Below, piece by piece: positions 3,744-27,640 of a DNA stretch of 40,635 bases (the first letter of the stretch is position 1; every line of letters begins with the position of its first letter). The notes under the pieces are model-generated. The model did no database searches. It was not told the origin of the DNA and saw only the letters and a list, made by a program, of their open reading frames with translations. The translations under genes and the position numbers were made by a program. The stretch is from a virus, in IMG/VR virus record IMGVR_UViG_3300020000_000004, positions 1 through 40,635 of that record; one strand, 5' to 3'.

Positions 3744-3816
3744 AGCTTGATGAAGGAATCGAACCTTCGTCTCTACATTTAGAAGTTTAAGCGCTCTACC
3801 ATTGAGCTAATCAAGC
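3744..3816 (-). tRNA. tRNA, anticodon probably TCT (Arg), divergent anticodon stem
   Basis: The reverse strand folds as a 73-nt tRNA: a perfect 7-bp acceptor stem (GCTTGAT/ATCAAGC), a D arm GCTC-AATGGTA-GAGC, and a T arm GAAGG-TTCGATT-CCTTC. The loop CTTCTAA is the usual tRNA-Arg(UCU) loop and gives anticodon TCT. The flanking anticodon stem pairs poorly, however, with several mismatches. The tRNA body is certain; the isotype and functionality are not. CCA is not encoded. Confidence 0.75.
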
Positions 3817-3818
3817 AT

Positions 3819-3891
3819 TGCTGACAGTAGGAATCGAACCCACGACCTTCAAGTTACAAACATGTTGCTCTACCAACTGAGCTATGTCAGC
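3819..3891 (-). tRNA. tRNA-Thr (anticodon TGT)
   Basis: The reverse strand gives a 73-nt tRNA with acceptor GCTGACA/TGTCAGC, D arm GCTC-AGTTGGTA-GAGC, anticodon loop TTTGTAA (anticodon TGT, reading ACA) and T arm GTGGG-TTCGATT-CCTAC. The overall sequence resembles bacterial tRNA-Thr. The anticodon stem has two apparent mismatches (A-A and T-T). It lies only 2 bases from the other tRNA, and its 5' end directly abuts the T-tract of a minus-strand terminator. CCA is not encoded. Confidence 0.88.
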
Positions 3892-3920
3892 AAAAAAAGG
3901 AGGGAATTTCTCCCCTCCTT
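3892..3920 (-). terminator. Minus-strand rho-independent terminator next to tRNA-Thr
   Basis: A perfect 8-bp inverted repeat (AAGGAGGG at 3897-3904, CCCTCCTT at 3913-3920) with an 8-base loop. On the minus strand it is followed by seven T residues (3898-3892). It would end transcripts coming from the 4163-5295 gene pair or from the repeat region. The tRNA-Thr gene begins at the very next base, so the tRNAs need read-through, processing or their own promoter. Confidence 0.75.
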
Positions 3921-9177: not shown

Positions 9178-9480
9178 AAATCCCCGTAAGGGGCTTGTAA
9201 CGGAACAGAGATGACTTTCTCTATTCTCTCCCCTCGACAATGTTGTAAAGCGGCACTTGGTCTAATCCGTTTCGTGCGTACCCTCTTGCTTGTCTGCAAC
9301 AAGACCTTCCAGAGCCTAGAACTGAGGAAGCATTCTAGGGTGGGTCTTTGGCCTCTATACAACGTAGACTCTTCAGCACTTGTCAAGCTCCGAGTCTTAG
9401 TCTGGACAATCAAAACTTGAGTTTTATCCCAAGCCTCTCCCTTTAGGGAGGGGTCATTGACACCATATCACGCCCATATC
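9178..9480. ncRNA. Heavily structured noncoding region with an IS200/IS605-type end hairpin
   Basis: This stretch has no convincing gene on either strand but is packed with hairpins. They are: CCCC-GTAA-GGGG (9182-9193); a nested stem pairing 9301-9306 with 9343-9348 around 9315-9321 with 9333-9339; AAAAC-TTGA-GTTTT (9412-9425); and an 8-bp stem CCTCTCCC-TTTA-GGGAGGGG (9434-9453) followed by TCATTGAC. The last hairpin, preceded by AAG, closely resembles right ends of IS200/IS605-family elements, whose adjoining RNA is the omega RNA of TnpB. No tnpB, iscB or tnpA gene is present. Candidates are a solitary omega-RNA-like relic, a MITE of that family, or a phage RNA of unknown type. The transcribed strand is undecided. 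Confidence 0.4.
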
Positions 9481-17761: not shown

Positions 17762-18433
17762 TCACAGGGTTCTTTTTTTATATATGATATTTTTTAATGT
17801 CCCAAGAAAATAACCAGTCGGATTTCTAACTCCTCCATGATGTTGTCGATAGTGGCAAGCTTCAATGCTTGTATAGATTTCATAATCTGTAGCTTTCTCT
17901 GTTGCCCAGATTTTGACTGCCTTATCGATCTTGATTTCTTTCAATAAATAATGAACGGACGCTTCTTGTTCTTTAAATTCTTTACTAAAGGAATAGTCCT
18001 TACTAAGAGGGGTGAACTTTTGAGGGGTGGGGGGGTGAACTTTTTCTTCATTTTGCATAGACAAAATAATGGATTCGGTCTTTTTCTTGGGTGAGTTCAA
18101 AAAGCCATGGATTTCTAACCAGTCCATGCTCATTTTAAAAGATTTATTTAATACATATTGATTAGTTGTATTTCCACCTCTTTTGTTATAACGTGGGCTT
18201 ACAGTTAAATAAAATTCTTTAATGTTTTTATTTTTTAATTTAGCGAAGAATTTCTGAACAGCCCTTATCGAAAGACCAGAAAAAAGAGCAATTTTTTCCA
18301 TTTTTGGAAAAGCTTTATCCGGATATCGATTCTGATACCAACGCAGATATTGAAAGATCTTTCGTTGTCCTGTCGTGAGTTGAAGGTAAAAGAGGGCGTA
18401 AGCTGAGAGAGGAAGGTCTAAATTCAAGTTCAT
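17762..18433 (-). CDS. Winged-helix replication-type protein
   Basis: A 223-residue protein. The N-terminal region (TGQRKIFQYLRWYQNRYPDK, FPKMEKIALFSGLSIRAVQK) is a helix-turn-helix of the kind found in phage replication initiators and primosome proteins. The middle is a lysine- and proline-rich linker (KVHPPTPQKFTPLSKDYSF). The C-terminus (GVRNPTGYFLGTLKN) is typical of such Rep/DnaD-like proteins. The ribosome binding site GGAG is buried in a hairpin (18438-18458), so translation may be controlled. Origin recognition is inferred. Confidence 0.7.
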   Translation of the reverse strand: MNLNLDLPLSAYALFYLQLTTGQRKIFQYLRWYQNRYPDKAFPKMEKIALFSGLSIRAVQKFFAKLKNKNIKEFYLTVSPRYNKRGGNTTNQYVLNKSFKMSMDWLEIHGFLNSPKKKTESIILSMQNEEKVHPPTPQKFTPLSKDYSFSKEFKEQEASVHYLLKEIKIDKAVKIWATEKATDYEIYTSIEACHYRQHHGGVRNPTGYFLGTLKNIIYKKRTL

Positions 18434-22310: not shown

Positions 22311-22730
22311 ATGATCGAACTTCGTCTTGATTGTGATCCAACCCCATGGGTAGCCCCGACAAAAGGGCGCAATGGATTCTACGATAAAAAGTCTAAAGAA
22401 AAAGAATTCATCCGCTGGCAGATAAAGAGCCAATATAAAGGACCGCTTCTCAATTGCTTTGTGGCACTGGAATTCATTTTTCTGATACCTCTTCAAAAGA
22501 ATATTTCAAAACGAGATCTAAAAAGAAAGATTGATCGAGAAATTCTGCCCACTTCACCCGATACTACCAACATGCAAAAACTCTATGAAGATTGCCTGCA
22601 AGGTATCGTAATCGAAAATGATCGCTTGAGTTATAAAATAACATCATCTAGATACTACTCTGAAAGGCCAGGAGTAGAGATAAAAGTGCACCCATGGCCT
22701 GAAACACAAAACAATAAAGGAGACATATGA
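22311..22730 (+). CDS. rusA: RusA-like Holliday junction resolvase
   Basis: A 139-residue protein of the RusA family, homodimeric endonucleases that cut Holliday junctions. Visible features are an N-terminal PTPWVAPTKGRNGFYDKK, a Lys-rich strand, and the catalytic-region pattern PTSPDTTNMQKLYEDCLQGI followed by VIENDRL, which carries the conserved Asp residues. The end ERPGVEIKVHPW is typical. It would act with the exonuclease and Bet in recombination and in resolving replication products before packaging. A start overlap (ATGA) couples it to the next gene. Confidence 0.85.
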   Translation: MIELRLDCDPTPWVAPTKGRNGFYDKKSKEKEFIRWQIKSQYKGPLLNCFVALEFIFLIPLQKNISKRDLKRKIDREILPTSPDTTNMQKLYEDCLQGIVIENDRLSYKITSSRYYSERPGVEIKVHPWPETQNNKGDI

Positions 22731-22936
22731 CCCCAGATCAACTCAAACAAGCCATAAACTATGATTATCAATTGATGACATTTGCTATCGGCCTGCATCA
22801 ATATTTTTTACCAACTAGCGAAAAGGGAGCCATGCTTTCCGCTGAACTTATCGACTTTGCTCAAAAGTTCGGAAACTTCGTTCATCAAGCAAGACAAGAA
22901 GGCTTTATTGTGACTAAAACTGAAGCGGTGAACTAA
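22727..22936 (+). CDS. Small helical early protein
   Basis: A 69-residue all-helical protein (TPDQLKQAINYDYQLMTFAI, LSAELIDFAQKFGNFVHQAR). Its ATG overlaps the RusA stop. AAAGGAG lies 5 bases upstream. Unknown family. Confidence 0.65.
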   Translation: MTPDQLKQAINYDYQLMTFAIGLHQYFLPTSEKGAMLSAELIDFAQKFGNFVHQARQEGFIVTKTEAVN

Positions 22937-22959
22937 CGTAGCTGGCAAAATTCTCACAA

Positions 22960-22972
22960 ATTCGATATAATA
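22960..22972 (+). promoter_or_regulatory. -10 element before the HNH gene
   Basis: A perfect TATAAT hexamer (22965-22970) follows an A/T-rich spacer and a weak TGGCAA-like -35 about 18 bases upstream. It lies 21 bases before the HNH start codon. Confidence 0.4.
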
Positions 22973-22991
22973 CCACTAAAGGGTGGTTTTA

Positions 22992-23651
22992 ATGTTAAAT
23001 TTATGTCATCTTTGTCAGAAACCAATAGAATTTGGTCAGAAATTTTGTTCGCGCCTTTGTTATCACATCTCTACTAGAGGGAAATACAATAAGGGCCATA
23101 AAAATATTAAAGGTAAAGCATTTCCTAAGGGGAAAAGTGGATATAATCATCTTGAAAAAGTTCGAGTATGCAAATTGTGCAATGAGAACTTTACTAAGAA
23201 AGCTGCTTATGCCCTTTATTGCTCCGATGCCTGTAAAGAAAGAAGTAGGCCTGATGCACAAAAAAAAGATTTTATATGCAAATTCTGCCAAATACCCTTT
23301 AAAAGAAGGGCTTTCAATAATGCCTGTTATTTTTGCTCTAGAGATTGTAGTGGTTTTTTTCAGATGGTTCATTCAAATGTTGCATATTTCTACAAAGCAT
23401 TTTCTTGGTTACCCCATGAATGTGAAATTTGTAAAATTGATGATTACCAGGTTCTCTGTGTTCATCATAGAGATAAGGACCGGAAAAATAATGAAATCAA
23501 AAATTTGCAAATTTTATGTGCCAACTGTCACTACAGAATTCATTTTGGTATAGGAAGGGAAAGAAGAATTAAAATAACAAAAATTAAAAATTCACAGGAG
23601 AAATTCAATGCCTTTAAAAAAAGGAACTTCGAAATCTGTAATCGGTCATAA
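22992..23651 (+). CDS. HNH endonuclease with three zinc-finger repeats
   Basis: A 219-residue protein starting at the ATG at 22992. The first about 125 residues hold three related cysteine units of the form C-x2-C ... C-S-x2-C or F-C-S-R-x-C (CHLCQK/FCSRLC, CKLCNENF/YCSDAC, CKFCQIPF/CSRDC). The C-terminal half has an HNH nuclease signature: CEICKIDDY, VHHRDKDRKNNEIKNLQILC, ANCHYRIHFG. Such proteins are homing-type nucleases or packaging-linked HNH proteins. The separation from terminase argues for a homing-like or host-acting role. The gene end overlaps a 48-residue gene. Confidence 0.85.
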   Translation: MLNLCHLCQKPIEFGQKFCSRLCYHISTRGKYNKGHKNIKGKAFPKGKSGYNHLEKVRVCKLCNENFTKKAAYALYCSDACKERSRPDAQKKDFICKFCQIPFKRRAFNNACYFCSRDCSGFFQMVHSNVAYFYKAFSWLPHECEICKIDDYQVLCVHHRDKDRKNNEIKNLQILCANCHYRIHFGIGRERRIKITKIKNSQEKFNAFKKRNFEICNRS

Positions 23652-23754
23652 CATAAAGATGGAGAAAGGCGCGGGGAAAGGGACTAAACAGGCAATAGCC
23701 ATAGCTCTTAATGTTGCCAGAAAATCTGGGGCTAAGATTCCAAAAAAGAAGTAA
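23608..23754 (+). CDS. Small DUF6496-like phage protein
   Basis: A 48-residue basic protein with AGGAG 7 bases before its ATG; it overlaps the HNH gene by 44 bases in another frame. The pattern PLKKGTSKSVIGHNI, then KQAIAIALNVARKSGAKIP matches a very common small phage protein (DUF6496-like, often written PLKKG...QAIAIAL). Function unknown; often found near head genes. Confidence 0.7.
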   Translation: MPLKKGTSKSVIGHNIKMEKGAGKGTKQAIAIALNVARKSGAKIPKKK

Positions 23755-23801
23755 TATCTTTTAAGGCCAGGTTAAGGCTTGGCCAAAAAAACAGCGAGTT
23801 A

Positions 23802-23857
23802 TACCCACAAATTATAGGTTATAGCTACTTTTGGGTATATATGGGTAGAAATGGGTA
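23802..23857. repeat. TGGGTA array with exact 10-bp spacing
   Basis: Three direct copies of TGGGTA start at 23832, 23842 and 23852, exactly one helical turn apart. One inverted copy (TACCCA) lies at 23802-23807. An A/T-rich stretch and a promoter-like sequence follow. This is a candidate operator or iteron-type origin site. The rest of the gap 23755-23903 holds a short inverted repeat (GGCCA/TGGCC near 23766-23784) and no gene. Confidence 0.6.
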
Positions 23858-23867
23858 AATATCAAAA

Positions 23868-23895
23868 TTGATTTTTACAACATAATACATATTAT
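23868..23895 (+). promoter_or_regulatory. Promoter candidate giving a nearly leaderless transcript
   Basis: TTGATT (23868-23873), 16-base spacer, TATTAT (23890-23895). The ATG at 23904 is only 9 bases after the -10, so the mRNA would have almost no leader; only a weak CGGA precedes the ATG. Confidence 0.4.
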
Positions 23896-23903
23896 CGGAC
23901 TAT

Positions 23904-24113
23904 ATGACAAAAAAGAAACCTGATCCGGATGAAGCTCTTGATTTGGCTAATCAACTTTTGATGTCGCTTGATCAAACCAAAACAGATCCAGTTTTAGCTT
24001 TTGCAGCCCTAGGATGTGGATTTATTCAGCTTCATAAAGCGCTAGGACATTCAAAAGAAGATTTTATAAATTGGTCTAAAGAAATGGCAGAAATTGCCTG
24101 GGAGCAAAAATGA
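23904..24113 (+). CDS. Small helical protein behind the TGGGTA array
   Basis: A 69-residue protein with a basic start (MTKKKPDPDEALDLANQLLM) and two helices (VLAFAALGCGFIQLHKALG, EDFINWSKEMAEIAWEQK). It has no strong ribosome binding site. Its stop overlaps the next start (ATGA). Unknown family. Confidence 0.65.
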   Translation: MTKKKPDPDEALDLANQLLMSLDQTKTDPVLAFAALGCGFIQLHKALGHSKEDFINWSKEMAEIAWEQK

Positions 24114-24286
24114 GACTTAAATTTCCTGATTTGACACAGATTCACGCGAATTTCGAAAATCCAAATATGCTTAGAATGAGAGCATCAGAGATTTCGCAAA
24201 TGGCCTCGAAAGTGATTAAAAAGGTTGAAGATCCGAAATTGTTTAGAAGATTGAAAGATAGGATATTGGAGATTTGGAGGGCATGA
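24110..24286 (+). CDS. 58-residue basic helical protein
   Basis: Starts at an ATG overlapping the previous stop and has GGAGC 5 bases upstream. The product runs MRLKFPDLTQIHANFENPN then helices with ASEISQMASKVIKKV and LFRRLKDRILEIWRA. Too short for a family call; the coupling on both sides supports expression. Confidence 0.6.
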   Translation: MRLKFPDLTQIHANFENPNMLRMRASEISQMASKVIKKVEDPKLFRRLKDRILEIWRA

Positions 24287-24363
24287 CGGATTTTCAAGCA
24301 ATTTGTATATCTGTAGGTGCATTTATGTTTTTAATAGGTTTTATAATGGGGTTAAATGGCTAA
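24283..24363 (+). CDS. 26-residue membrane microprotein
   Basis: The ATG overlaps the previous stop (ATGA) and has GGAGG 5 bases upstream. The product is a single hydrophobic helix (FQAICISVGAFMFLIGFIMG). Its stop codon overlaps the stop of the convergent gene at 24360. Possibly a small holin-type or regulatory peptide. Confidence 0.5.
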   Translation: MTDFQAICISVGAFMFLIGFIMGLNG

Positions 24364-24530
24364 ATCTCAATATCAATTTGCATGCCCAAAAACTTGCGAA
24401 ACCCTTCAATTTGTCCCTTAGTCAAGCTACGACGATTCAGCAATTGACAGAGCCAGATTGAGGCTTCGCAGTTAGGATAATAGCGATAGCGACACCCTGT
24501 GTATTTACGGAGCAATTTTAGAGAGCGCAT
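24360..24530 (-). CDS. 56-residue basic Cys-rich protein
   Basis: The ATG at 24530 with AAGGAG 7 bases upstream lies inside the end of the preceding gene. The product is basic with aromatics and three Cys (RKYTGCRYRYYPNCEASIWL). It has a helix-turn-like end (NRRSLTKGQIEGFRKFLG). Unknown. Confidence 0.55.
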   Translation of the reverse strand: MRSLKLLRKYTGCRYRYYPNCEASIWLCQLLNRRSLTKGQIEGFRKFLGMQIDIEI

Positions 24531-24741
24531 TAATATTCTCCTTAAGCCGTTGACCTGTTTCATTCATTTCAATTACATGATTTTTAAATCCTACAAAATC
24601 ATCTGCTTTCAAAAACTTCATACATAAAGATGCAGTACCATAACAATCCGCACCAATGAGATCTGCAAGCAAAGAACTTTTTTCAATATCAGACATTCGT
24701 GGTAAAAACTGGCACACTTTTATGTAATTTATGCTACTCAT
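24505..24741 (-). CDS. Hypothetical helical protein
   Basis: A 78-residue protein; the ATG at 24741 has AGGAG 8 bases upstream, so a start at 24789 is rejected. It is helical, with a Cys-containing centre (LADLIGADCYGTASLCMKFL). It overlaps the next minus gene by 26 bases. The 127-base gap to its right (24742-24868) separates it from a divergent gene. Confidence 0.6.
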   Translation of the reverse strand: MSSINYIKVCQFLPRMSDIEKSSLLADLIGADCYGTASLCMKFLKADDFVGFKNHVIEMNETGQRLKENINALSKIAP

Positions 24742-24868
24742 TGGCTTTCTCCTTTTTGGTTTTCTCAAGATATATACTTGATTATGCATTACATAATAAC
24801 CTAATGGTCAGATTAAATCTAGACATAAAAATTCTTTTAATGCTACACCTTAAGCAATAGGAGCATCT

Positions 24869-25054
24869 ATGCAAAAAAGAGACAAAACGGGTCGGTTTTT
24901 AAACAAATCTGTTACTAATTGCAGAGCGAAGAAAGTGAAAGTTAAAGTCAAGAAAGCAGCTTCAAAAAAGCGCATAATGGACATCTCAGATTTAACCTTC
25001 TATGACCTCAAAGATATGATCTCGGCTGAAGTCGCACTTCAAATGAGGTATTAA
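24869..25054 (+). CDS. Small basic protein, possible DNA binding
   Basis: A 61-residue protein with an AGGAG site 6 bases before its ATG. The first 35 residues are strongly basic (MQKRDKTGRFLNKSVTN, KVKVKVKKAASKKR), followed by an acidic helix (DISDLTFYDLKDMISAEVAL). A possible TACACC -10 with preceding TGC lies 30 bases upstream. It heads the operon that ends with terminase. Confidence 0.65.
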   Translation: MQKRDKTGRFLNKSVTNCRAKKVKVKVKKAASKKRIMDISDLTFYDLKDMISAEVALQMRY

Positions 25055-25056
25055 AC

Positions 25057-25221
25057 ATGTCAAATCTGCCTAAAGAACTGCAAGATGCTTTAGATAAGAA
25101 GATACAAGAGTGCATGATATTCATTCATGAGAAGTTTCAAGAAATGGAATTTAGATTGAAATCTGAAATGGCGAAGGAAATCAATAAGAAGAAAAGCTTA
25201 TTCCCGAAATGGTGGAAATAG
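25057..25221 (+). CDS. 54-residue coiled-coil protein ending in a WW motif
   Basis: ATG at 25057, 2 bases after the previous stop. The helical product starts MSNLPKELQDALDKKIQECM and ends KKKSLFPKWWK. The tail resembles that of the next gene (KSFWKWWE). Its stop overlaps a GTG start (TAGTG). Confidence 0.6.
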   Translation: MSNLPKELQDALDKKIQECMIFIHEKFQEMEFRLKSEMAKEINKKKSLFPKWWK

Positions 25222-26085: not shown

Positions 26086-26333
26086 TAGAATACCAATCAA
26101 ATTCAAAAGGCAAAAATTTTGGGGATTGGCATTGGTTTATAGACAAAATGCCCCGTGATTTGCAGAACGTTTTAGTCAGAACCTCTAACAATGAAATGTT
26201 TGTCATGACTCATCGAAAAAGTGATAAAGGTGAATCATATTTCAATTTATCAACCTATAGTCCCAATTTCAAACTCGGTGATTGGTATCTTGAAGATCTT
26301 CTTCAATGGCATCCAATTCCTGGCTTTGAATGA
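26082..26333 (+). CDS. DUF551-like small protein 2
   Basis: An 83-residue protein with a similar plan: DWHWFIDKMPRDLQNVLVRT near the start and LGDWYLEDLLQWHPIPGFE at the end. It probably arose by duplication of the previous gene or a relative. Its stop overlaps the terminase start (ATGA). Confidence 0.65.
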   Translation: MIEYQSNSKGKNFGDWHWFIDKMPRDLQNVLVRTSNNEMFVMTHRKSDKGESYFNLSTYSPNFKLGDWYLEDLLQWHPIPGFE

Positions 26334-27640
26334 GTGGCATATCCGACTATTTCTCGCCCAAACAACTCTTTTCAATTCGCAATTCACATGCCTCTATCAA
26401 TATTTGGGAAGGTTCGATAAGGTCTGGTAAAACACACGCATCACTATGGAGATTCGTTGATGAAGCAAATCTTGGCCCTGCTGGTGACTTTGCTATTATT
26501 ACTCGTACTTATGACAGCTTTGAGCGCAATATTCTCCCTGAGCTTCAGAAGATCCTTGGAAACCACGTTAGGTATTTCAGAGGTAAACGCCAGCTCTACA
26601 TTAAAACCCGTAAATGCCATGTAATCACAGCCGATGATGCAAGTGCCGAAGCCAAAATCCGAGGATGTACACTCAGCGGTGCGTACGTTGATGAAGTTAC
26701 AATTATCCCTGAAAACGTTTTCATTATGCTGCTCGGTAGGCTATCTATCGATGGCGCTAAGCTTTTCGGGACCACTAATCCGGACTCACCTTATCATTGG
26801 TTTAAAATATGGATGGAGGGCAACCCCGATCTTGTATCGTTTCAATTTGTGATGGATGACAATCCCTCACTCAGCGAGAATAGAAAGGATTTATTTAAGA
26901 GACAATACAAAGGCCTTTGGTATCAACGATTCATCTTAGGCAAATGGGTTCAAGCTGAAGGCGCAGTTTATGACTTTTTCGATGAAAAGATTCACGTTAT
27001 CGACTTTCCTTTATCTACTGCTACCAATTATATTGTAGGGGTTGATTATGGGACGACTAATCCTTGCTCTTTCGTCTTGGTTGGGATAAATAAACATAGG
27101 TATCCAAATGTCTGGGTCGAGGATGAATATTACTATAACTCGAGAGTTATACAGCGCCAAAAGACTGATTCAGAATATGCGGAAGATCTTCGAAACTTTA
27201 TTGAAGGACGAGCTGTTACAGCCATTTATCTTGATCCATCTGCTGCATCTTTTAGAGCAGAGATTATTAGAGGCGGAATTAGCAATCTGCATGACGCAGA
27301 AAACGACGTTATTGACGGAATCAGATTCGTTGCCAAGCTGCTCAATCAAGGGACATTCAAAATCTGCCGTAAGTGTAGAAACCTAATCGCCGAGTTCCAA
27401 TCATATGTATGGGATGAGAAGAGTTTAAAGTCAGGGATTGATAAGCCTAAGAAAGAAAGTGATCATGCCTTAGATGCGCTCAGGTATGCACTATATTCTC
27501 ATTTTTTCTTGAGCGAGCAAGGTGGGCTGTCTGCCAAAGATATTGATCGCAGTTATAACGAGGCTATGGGTGTAGGGCCGGATTTACCTCCGTTTTTTCA
27601 ACAGCCTAATGACGGCTTTGGGCCTCCGAGAAGGTTTTAG
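26330..27640 (+). CDS. terL: Terminase large subunit (PBSX/Terminase_6 type)
   Basis: A 436-residue packaging motor with ATPase and nuclease domains. Walker A is GSIRSGKTHAS near residue 28. Walker B is SGAYVDEVTIIP near residue 116. The coupling motif is LFGTTNPDSPYHWF. The RNase H-like nuclease shows VGVDYGTTNPCSF, AIYLDPSAASFRAEI and DHALDALRYALY, which carry the three expected acidic residues. Length is normal for the family. It translocates DNA into the prohead through the portal encoded at 29745 and cuts the concatemer. It is translated with the gene upstream (ATGA). Confidence 0.96.
   Translation: MSGISDYFSPKQLFSIRNSHASINIWEGSIRSGKTHASLWRFVDEANLGPAGDFAIITRTYDSFERNILPELQKILGNHVRYFRGKRQLYIKTRKCHVITADDASAEAKIRGCTLSGAYVDEVTIIPENVFIMLLGRLSIDGAKLFGTTNPDSPYHWFKIWMEGNPDLVSFQFVMDDNPSLSENRKDLFKRQYKGLWYQRFILGKWVQAEGAVYDFFDEKIHVIDFPLSTATNYIVGVDYGTTNPCSFVLVGINKHRYPNVWVEDEYYYNSRVIQRQKTDSEYAEDLRNFIEGRAVTAIYLDPSAASFRAEIIRGGISNLHDAENDVIDGIRFVAKLLNQGTFKICRKCRNLIAEFQSYVWDEKSLKSGIDKPKKESDHALDALRYALYSHFFLSEQGGLSAKDIDRSYNEAMGVGPDLPPFFQQPNDGFGPPRRF

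Follow-up and report, generated by a model that had tools for sequence, protein, structure and literature searches.

The stretch of viral DNA analyzed here (hereafter the window; 40,635 nucleotides, positions 1–40,635 of IMG/VR virus record IMGVR_UViG_3300020000_000004) contains at 23802–23903 what we favor, on balance, as the attachment region, or at least the Xer-recombination region, of a tailed phage that would use the XerC and XerD proteins of its host, with an array of TGGGTA repeats as accessory binding sequence. The conserved element of the region is best read as a dif-like attP, or at least as an Xer resolution site for host XerC/XerD. The use of XerCD, integration and a function for the array are suggested by the sequence comparisons presented below, in which L and G numbers are our handles for loci and genomes. 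The features of the region and its neighborhood are as follows.

22983–23651, plus strand: HNH endonuclease gene, with no match at the same place in L005/L006
23608–23754, plus strand: small DUF6496 protein on the array side (profile match)
23802–23807, minus strand: inverted TGGGTA copy, belonging to the inverted pair TATACCCACAA / TTTTGGGTATA
23832–23837, 23842–23847 and 23852–23857, plus strand: three direct TGGGTA copies with a 10-bp period (motif search, shuffles)
23868–23895, plus strand: promoter candidate TTGATT-16-TATTAT, overlapping the dif-like site and not above chance
23879–23900, plus strand: dif-like Xer site AACATAA-TACATA-TTATCGGAC, putative attP, kept in position in relatives and matching a Chlamydiota motif (XerD-type half, 23879–23885; central region, 23886–23891; XerC-type half, 23892–23900)
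23904–24113, plus strand: 69-aa gene with relatives in L005/L006; other genes stand here in other relatives
24110–24286, plus strand: conserved 58-aa small protein near the site (64–83% in five relatives)
26330–27640, plus strand: large terminase subunit (TerL; profile match), the census query

The dif-like site in phages and Chlamydiota

We take the names of the XerD and XerC arms, and the correspondence of halves and center, from comparison with known dif sites. A nucleotide search of 22800–25200 against phages returned nothing, and relatives were collected via their RusA and RecT proteins. The region is syntenic in L005, L006, L009/L010, L015 and L017, and more distantly in L007. The site is held in place in the syntenic relatives although the upstream DNA differs. 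Both halves are exact in L007, L011 and L017, carry one change in L006 and L015 and two in L010, whereas the site of L005 has a 7-bp center. The L018 record has no site within two mismatches; L008 stops short of the site position and its record has just a two-mismatch site elsewhere. The genes immediately behind the site vary among relatives, and the element is therefore independent of any single gene. The 58-aa protein encoded nearby is predicted to form three helices, at low confidence (mean pLDDT 70). A GroES-like gene (Cpn10, tested in L010) lies near the Xer site at L010:1687–1953 and was also noticed by eye near the site in L015, L017 and L262; none was seen near that of the window. We also considered the sequence GTCYGATAA, which resembles a serine-resolvase half-site, and dropped this candidate: dif accounts for both the spacing of 6 and the presence of the motif in Chlamydiota, and the window gave no match to PF00239.

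Of the 80 viral loci selected by TerL, 79 entered a census (872 kb, L009 left out), which recovered 13 sites with at most one mismatch, against none for the mirror pattern and one for swapped halves; at up to two mismatches the counts were 19, 2 and 4. Eleven of the 13 sites, one of them on the window's twin contig, lie 1.9–4.0 kb upstream of TerL on the same strand, at least 4 kb upstream of TerL being available in 43 of the 79 loci. Two rows of the query alignment (A1), L039 and L079, had been selected by the motif, and two of the 13 sites come from their records. We also searched a set of 48 longer records (≥20 kb), 40 of them picked by protein similarity and eight by the motif. Within two mismatches, the site is present in 28 of these 48 and the mirror pattern in two; at one mismatch or less, 14 of the 40 similarity-chosen records have the site and 26 do not. 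A tyrosine recombinase domain (PF00589) was found in one of the 48, and that record has no site within two mismatches.

A two-armed motif with a variable 6-bp center, occurring mostly once per genome, is the look of dif. Of 116 Chlamydiota genomes, 91 have the exact pattern AACATAA-N6-TTATCRGAC: 82 have it a single time and nine have it two to three times. The mirror pattern, used as a control, was absent from all 116 and, with one mismatch allowed, appeared in one of 12 Chlamydiota genomes (G208). For Chlamydiae, the accessible text of Kono et al. (PMC3025954) gives dif predictions in 14 of 14. From the sequence pattern we infer that the Chlamydiota motif is dif; in most Chlamydiota genomes examined, the position of dif is probably given by AACATAA-N6-TTATCAGAC, and the phage site is probably a copy of the place where chlamydia-like bacteria separate their chromosomes. 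The 79 sites on fetched Chlamydiota stretches have the consensus yAACATAA-N6-TTATCAGACGTT. The XerC-type half reads CAGAC in 76 of these 79 and CGGAC in the window. The central region of the window site, TACATA, recurs unchanged in five of the Chlamydiota genomes listed (G009, G014, G015, G017 and G019). Phage and host centers differ in three MAGs (TGGATA/TATATA, GAACAA/TATACA and GATATA/GATCAA). One Chlamydiota genome has two exact dif-like sites in direct orientation 793 bp apart (L230:9382 and 10175), possibly a small Xer cassette.

The most likely host, judging from relatives and the site, is an environmental chlamydia. Ranked by E-value, the four best bacterial or archaeal genome matches to TerL lie in one contig from a bin labeled Methanomicrobiales (62%) and in three MAGs of Chlamydiae (56, 51 and 46%); the remaining 64 TerL loci bear other titles (29–50%). 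No site was found in the Methanomicrobiales-binned genome or in the 40 kb examined of its contig. The major capsid protein is 76% identical in one of the three Chlamydiae MAGs, a Simkaniaceae MAG, and at most 27% identical in the 20 listed of 25 matching phage records. The binning of MAGs may err, and the host may lie outside Chlamydiota. Among 26 other genomes chosen for holding TerL relatives, three have the motif, all as CGGAC; a host outside Chlamydiota is conceivable because the window has this same form. As a separate observation, the major capsid matches are split into five pieces in L248:15830–18568 and four in L383:11883–14034, with one piece in L246; the gaps in L248 and L383 have no Rfam match and could be introns, inteins or assembly trouble.

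Genome content and the search for integration

The window ends in an exact 127-bp terminal repeat and therefore is probably a complete circular assembly, that of a 40.6-kb tailed phage with a P22-type portal. Besides the portal, its genes include those for the large terminase, RusA, RecE/RecT and a small Cro-like HTH protein whose PF01381 match falls below the cut-off. The PF00589 model, which matches 14 of 14 control genomes, found no tyrosine recombinase in the window; PF00239, which matches 10 of 14, found no serine recombinase there. Pfam and PHROGs scans of most of the larger ORFs named no integrase. This probably complete genome thus combines a dif-like site with no recombinase of its own that we could find, two of the features of an integrative mobile element exploiting Xer (IMEX), and integration via host XerC/XerD is proposed because none was found. 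An IMEX would further be expected to share bases of its center with the host dif, to turn up integrated there between two sites and to recombine by XerC/XerD. Two RNA features of the window stand apart from this question. A HEARO RNA, which we take to be the guide-RNA type of IscB-like elements, maps to 9223–9461 on the minus strand (RF02033, 104.5 bits); the ORF list shows no large ORF immediately after it, so it is possibly an orphan. Two adjacent tRNA genes lie at 3744–3892, also on the minus strand; one is for Thr, and the anticodon of the other was called, unusually, as tcta.

Mobile elements that carry a dif-like site and rely on host Xer include VGJphi, CTXphi, TLCphi, the gonococcal genomic island, LME-1 and the NO16 'Asemoviridae' (PMC5357621, PMC9966536, PMC9765430). 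As far as the accessible portions of these reports go, IMEX elements resemble the window in the dif-like site and in their dependence on host Xer, which is proposed here. They differ in that those named are filamentous, tailless, phage-like or islands, whereas the window represents a tailed phage that has a P22-type portal, links to Chlamydiota and putative integration. Similarly, the filamentous Xanthomonas phage XacF1 is described in the accessible part of its report as integrating at dif through XerC/D, with attP inside a possible regulator gene (PMC5666396); its morphology and host set it apart from the tailed phage of the window. Among the matches listed in the open-access literature, a scope that leaves most subscription papers and bioRxiv preprints outside, there was no tailed Chlamydiota phage using dif.

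We also looked at phage contigs within Chlamydiota genomes. A P22-type portal is present in 12 of 232 such genomes and lies on a contig of at least 14 kb in eight. One of these, a 125-kb contig of G050, holds remnants only (RecE, a portal piece and terminase). The other seven portal contigs range from 14.7 to 40.7 kb. Four of them, from G001, G003, G117 and G201 (the last with one mismatch), bear the site and belong to genomes with another site on a different contig; the phage contigs of G002, G263 and G303 lack it. Exact terminal repeats occur in two, G001:C102 (99 bp, site present) and G263:C2 (173 bp, site absent). Across 81 Chlamydiota stretches that together hold 79 sites (58 of these sites with at least 5 kb on both sides), no prophage of the family was seen between two sites, and no phage-host junction was seen at contig starts near the site in five close relatives. 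Two sites of G002 (L249:3450–3515 and L456:13454–13519) agree over the site itself and about 44 bp on one side (90%) while the other flank differs, which may reflect a strain mixture or an insertion; phage-like matches occur near the L249 site. Two further chlamydial contigs, both with phage-like genes, were rejected as integrated prophages because they look plasmid-like. One (G067:C12, L410) is a 96-kb chlamydial contig with ParA, a primase-helicase and a RecT-like gene; the other (G115:C3, L238) is 81 kb long, has an exact Xer site and shares the G067:C12 gene order by ORF lengths and tblastn.

These contigs bear on an alternative that we consider possible though rather unlikely, namely, that the phage never integrates and has a circular, plasmid-like genome whose dimers are resolved to monomers at the site, with the array as accessory sequence. 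The plasmid Xer sites cer and psi consist of a dif-like core and flanking accessory DNA, a layout that the window shares. Consistent with resolution, the portal contigs in Chlamydiota other than that of G050 stay within the size range given above and two have exact terminal repeats, the plasmid-like G067:C12 carries an exact site beside recombination genes and has its gene order in common with G115:C3, and the window's RecE/RecT could produce multimers. However, unlike cer and psi plasmids, the window has no ParA or other partition gene named among its scanned ORFs (small ORFs covered in part). Furthermore, a headful packager, as the P22-type portal leads us to infer, would hardly need monomers.

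The TGGGTA array and other readings of the region

The starting point for this analysis was an earlier note that described repeats resembling an iteron origin or a cooperative operator, followed by a candidate promoter of an almost leaderless gene. The three TGGGTA copies at an exact 10-bp period are indeed present, starting at 23832, 23842 and 23852. The inverted copy is present as well, although the gap to the first direct copy is 24 bp and not 25 bp as claimed. The hexamer by itself is not clearly enriched, with 18 occurrences in the window against 11.9 expected (18 was reached in 7 of 100 shuffles). Three copies at a constant period are nevertheless rare. When any 6-mer with at least two G/C and three kinds of base was counted, three-copy arrays arose in 3 of 100 whole-window shuffles at periods from 8 to 25 and in none of the 100 at period 10; 2000 intergenic shuffles gave none. 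The array lies 21 bp beyond the XerD-side half of the site.

The note had named loss of the motif in relatives among the findings that would refute its reading, and this was observed for the array, which is absent from the syntenic relatives examined and from all loci compared except the window itself and an identical twin contig. Arrays of three TGGGTA copies are present on 46 viral stretches and, apart from the twin, one of these (L364, two mismatches) has a dif-like site within 400 bp; all other exact arrays outside this phage and its twin lack a close dif-like site. The array is, therefore, no general companion of dif-like sites. We also compared repeats within 110 bp of 17 sites with shuffles. 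The longest repeat pairs near the window's site are unexceptional (36/200 and 109/200). Notable XerD-side repeats occur at a few sites (L005 inverted, 0/200; L264 direct, 2/200; L010 direct, 4/200; L218 direct, 9/200) and are missing from most of the 17. Such repeats are not peculiar to the XerD side, since they also turn up on the XerC side at some sites (L218 inverted, 0/200; L264 direct, 4/200).

Of the two identities that the note had offered for the repeats, the cooperative operator holds up as the best reading (a candidate array for an operator or for a recombination directionality factor, RDF), while the iteron origin found little support. The comparison with phage 186 points the same way. 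Its Apl protein uses 6-bp operators in direct repeats 10–11 bp apart, located at attP and between promoters, and efficient binding needs three adjacent copies, according to the accessible text of that report (PMC7498355). Among the RDF operators considered (phage 186 Apl, lambda Xis and P2 Cox), those of Apl share, in the same partial source, the 6-bp direct repeats at the attachment site. The window likewise has three direct repeats with a 10-bp period beside a putative attachment site; it differs from these systems in that no integrase was found and the array is confined to one phage among those examined. By this analogy, the array may bind a protein of the phage and so control recombination or transcription, or the two together. 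The Cro-like protein probably does not bind it, since that protein is 87% identical in L005/L006, both of which lack the array. The rep-type HTH protein (17762) stays a possible binder because it is lineage-specific like the array. Two candidates for an RDF-like protein were looked at, and neither was identified as a winged-helix RDF.

A conserved promoter, with TATTAT as the –10 box, the array as an activator site and the likeness to dif as a by-product, appears improbable. In its favor, the region is A/T-rich and the site is followed by an ATG after 3–13 bp in the window, L005, L006, L007, L010 and L011. The distance is 3 bp in the window (23904) and L006, 12 bp in L005 and L007, where the first ATG follows AAGGAG, and 13 bp in L011. 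However, conservation falls on the letters of the Chlamydiota motif (AACATAA within the spacer, CRGAC after the box), and TATTAT combines the final two bases of the central region with the inner XerC-type half. The box changes with the central region, to GATTAT in L007/L298, GTTTAT in L266 and GCTTAT in L281, and no –35 box conserved by eye was found across relatives. Promoter-like matches in 22700–25200 are at chance level (10 versus 8.9 expected), and –35 and –10 boxes that are both above chance and conserved, as expected of a sigma-70 promoter, were not found. The promoter that the earlier note had placed behind the array is thus better explained by an Xer-type recombination site.

Iteron origins have repeats next to or inside the initiator gene together with a DnaA box. 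An iteron origin bound by the 17762 HTH protein is very improbable: protein and repeats are both lineage-specific (at the 17762 place, L005 has another HTH_36 protein and L014, from the genome of L010, a third without a Pfam match), but the array lies 5.4 kb from the rep-type gene, lacks a nearby DnaA-like match (the only ones found, at 2981 and 9643, are at least 14 kb away) and coincides with no turn in GC skew, while the rep-type gene holds its own repeat pair near the most A/T-rich stretch. This pair, a 13-bp repeat occurring twice, 23 bp apart, at 18009 and 18032 (18009–18044) near the most A/T-rich 100 bp of the window, is a candidate phage origin.

Proposed mechanism and implications

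In the attachment-site reading that we prefer, the core at 23879–23900 would imitate the dif of the host chromosome, host XerC and XerD would bind one half each and exchange strands around the central 6 bp, and the phage would integrate at dif as IMEX do. The XerD-side TGGGTA array would cooperatively bind a phage-encoded accessory protein, an RDF or a regulator of that type, which would steer Xer recombination and might also influence how the 23904 gene is transcribed.

A broader proposal, which we regard as speculative and on present evidence unlikely, is that a lineage of tailed Chlamydiota phages lives as prophages through dif mimicry and borrowed XerC/XerD. Integration would then separate the array from the first gene of the terminase-side block (from 23904), the array could act on these genes only while the phage is circular, and host-driven Xer recombination would itself be the lysis-lysogeny switch. 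More generally, if a tailed Chlamydiota phage does use dif, tailed phages would have a means of persistence in hosts that are obligately intracellular and difficult to manipulate. Such use would also define a 22-bp chromosomal target in these hosts and extend Xer hijacking to tailed phages.
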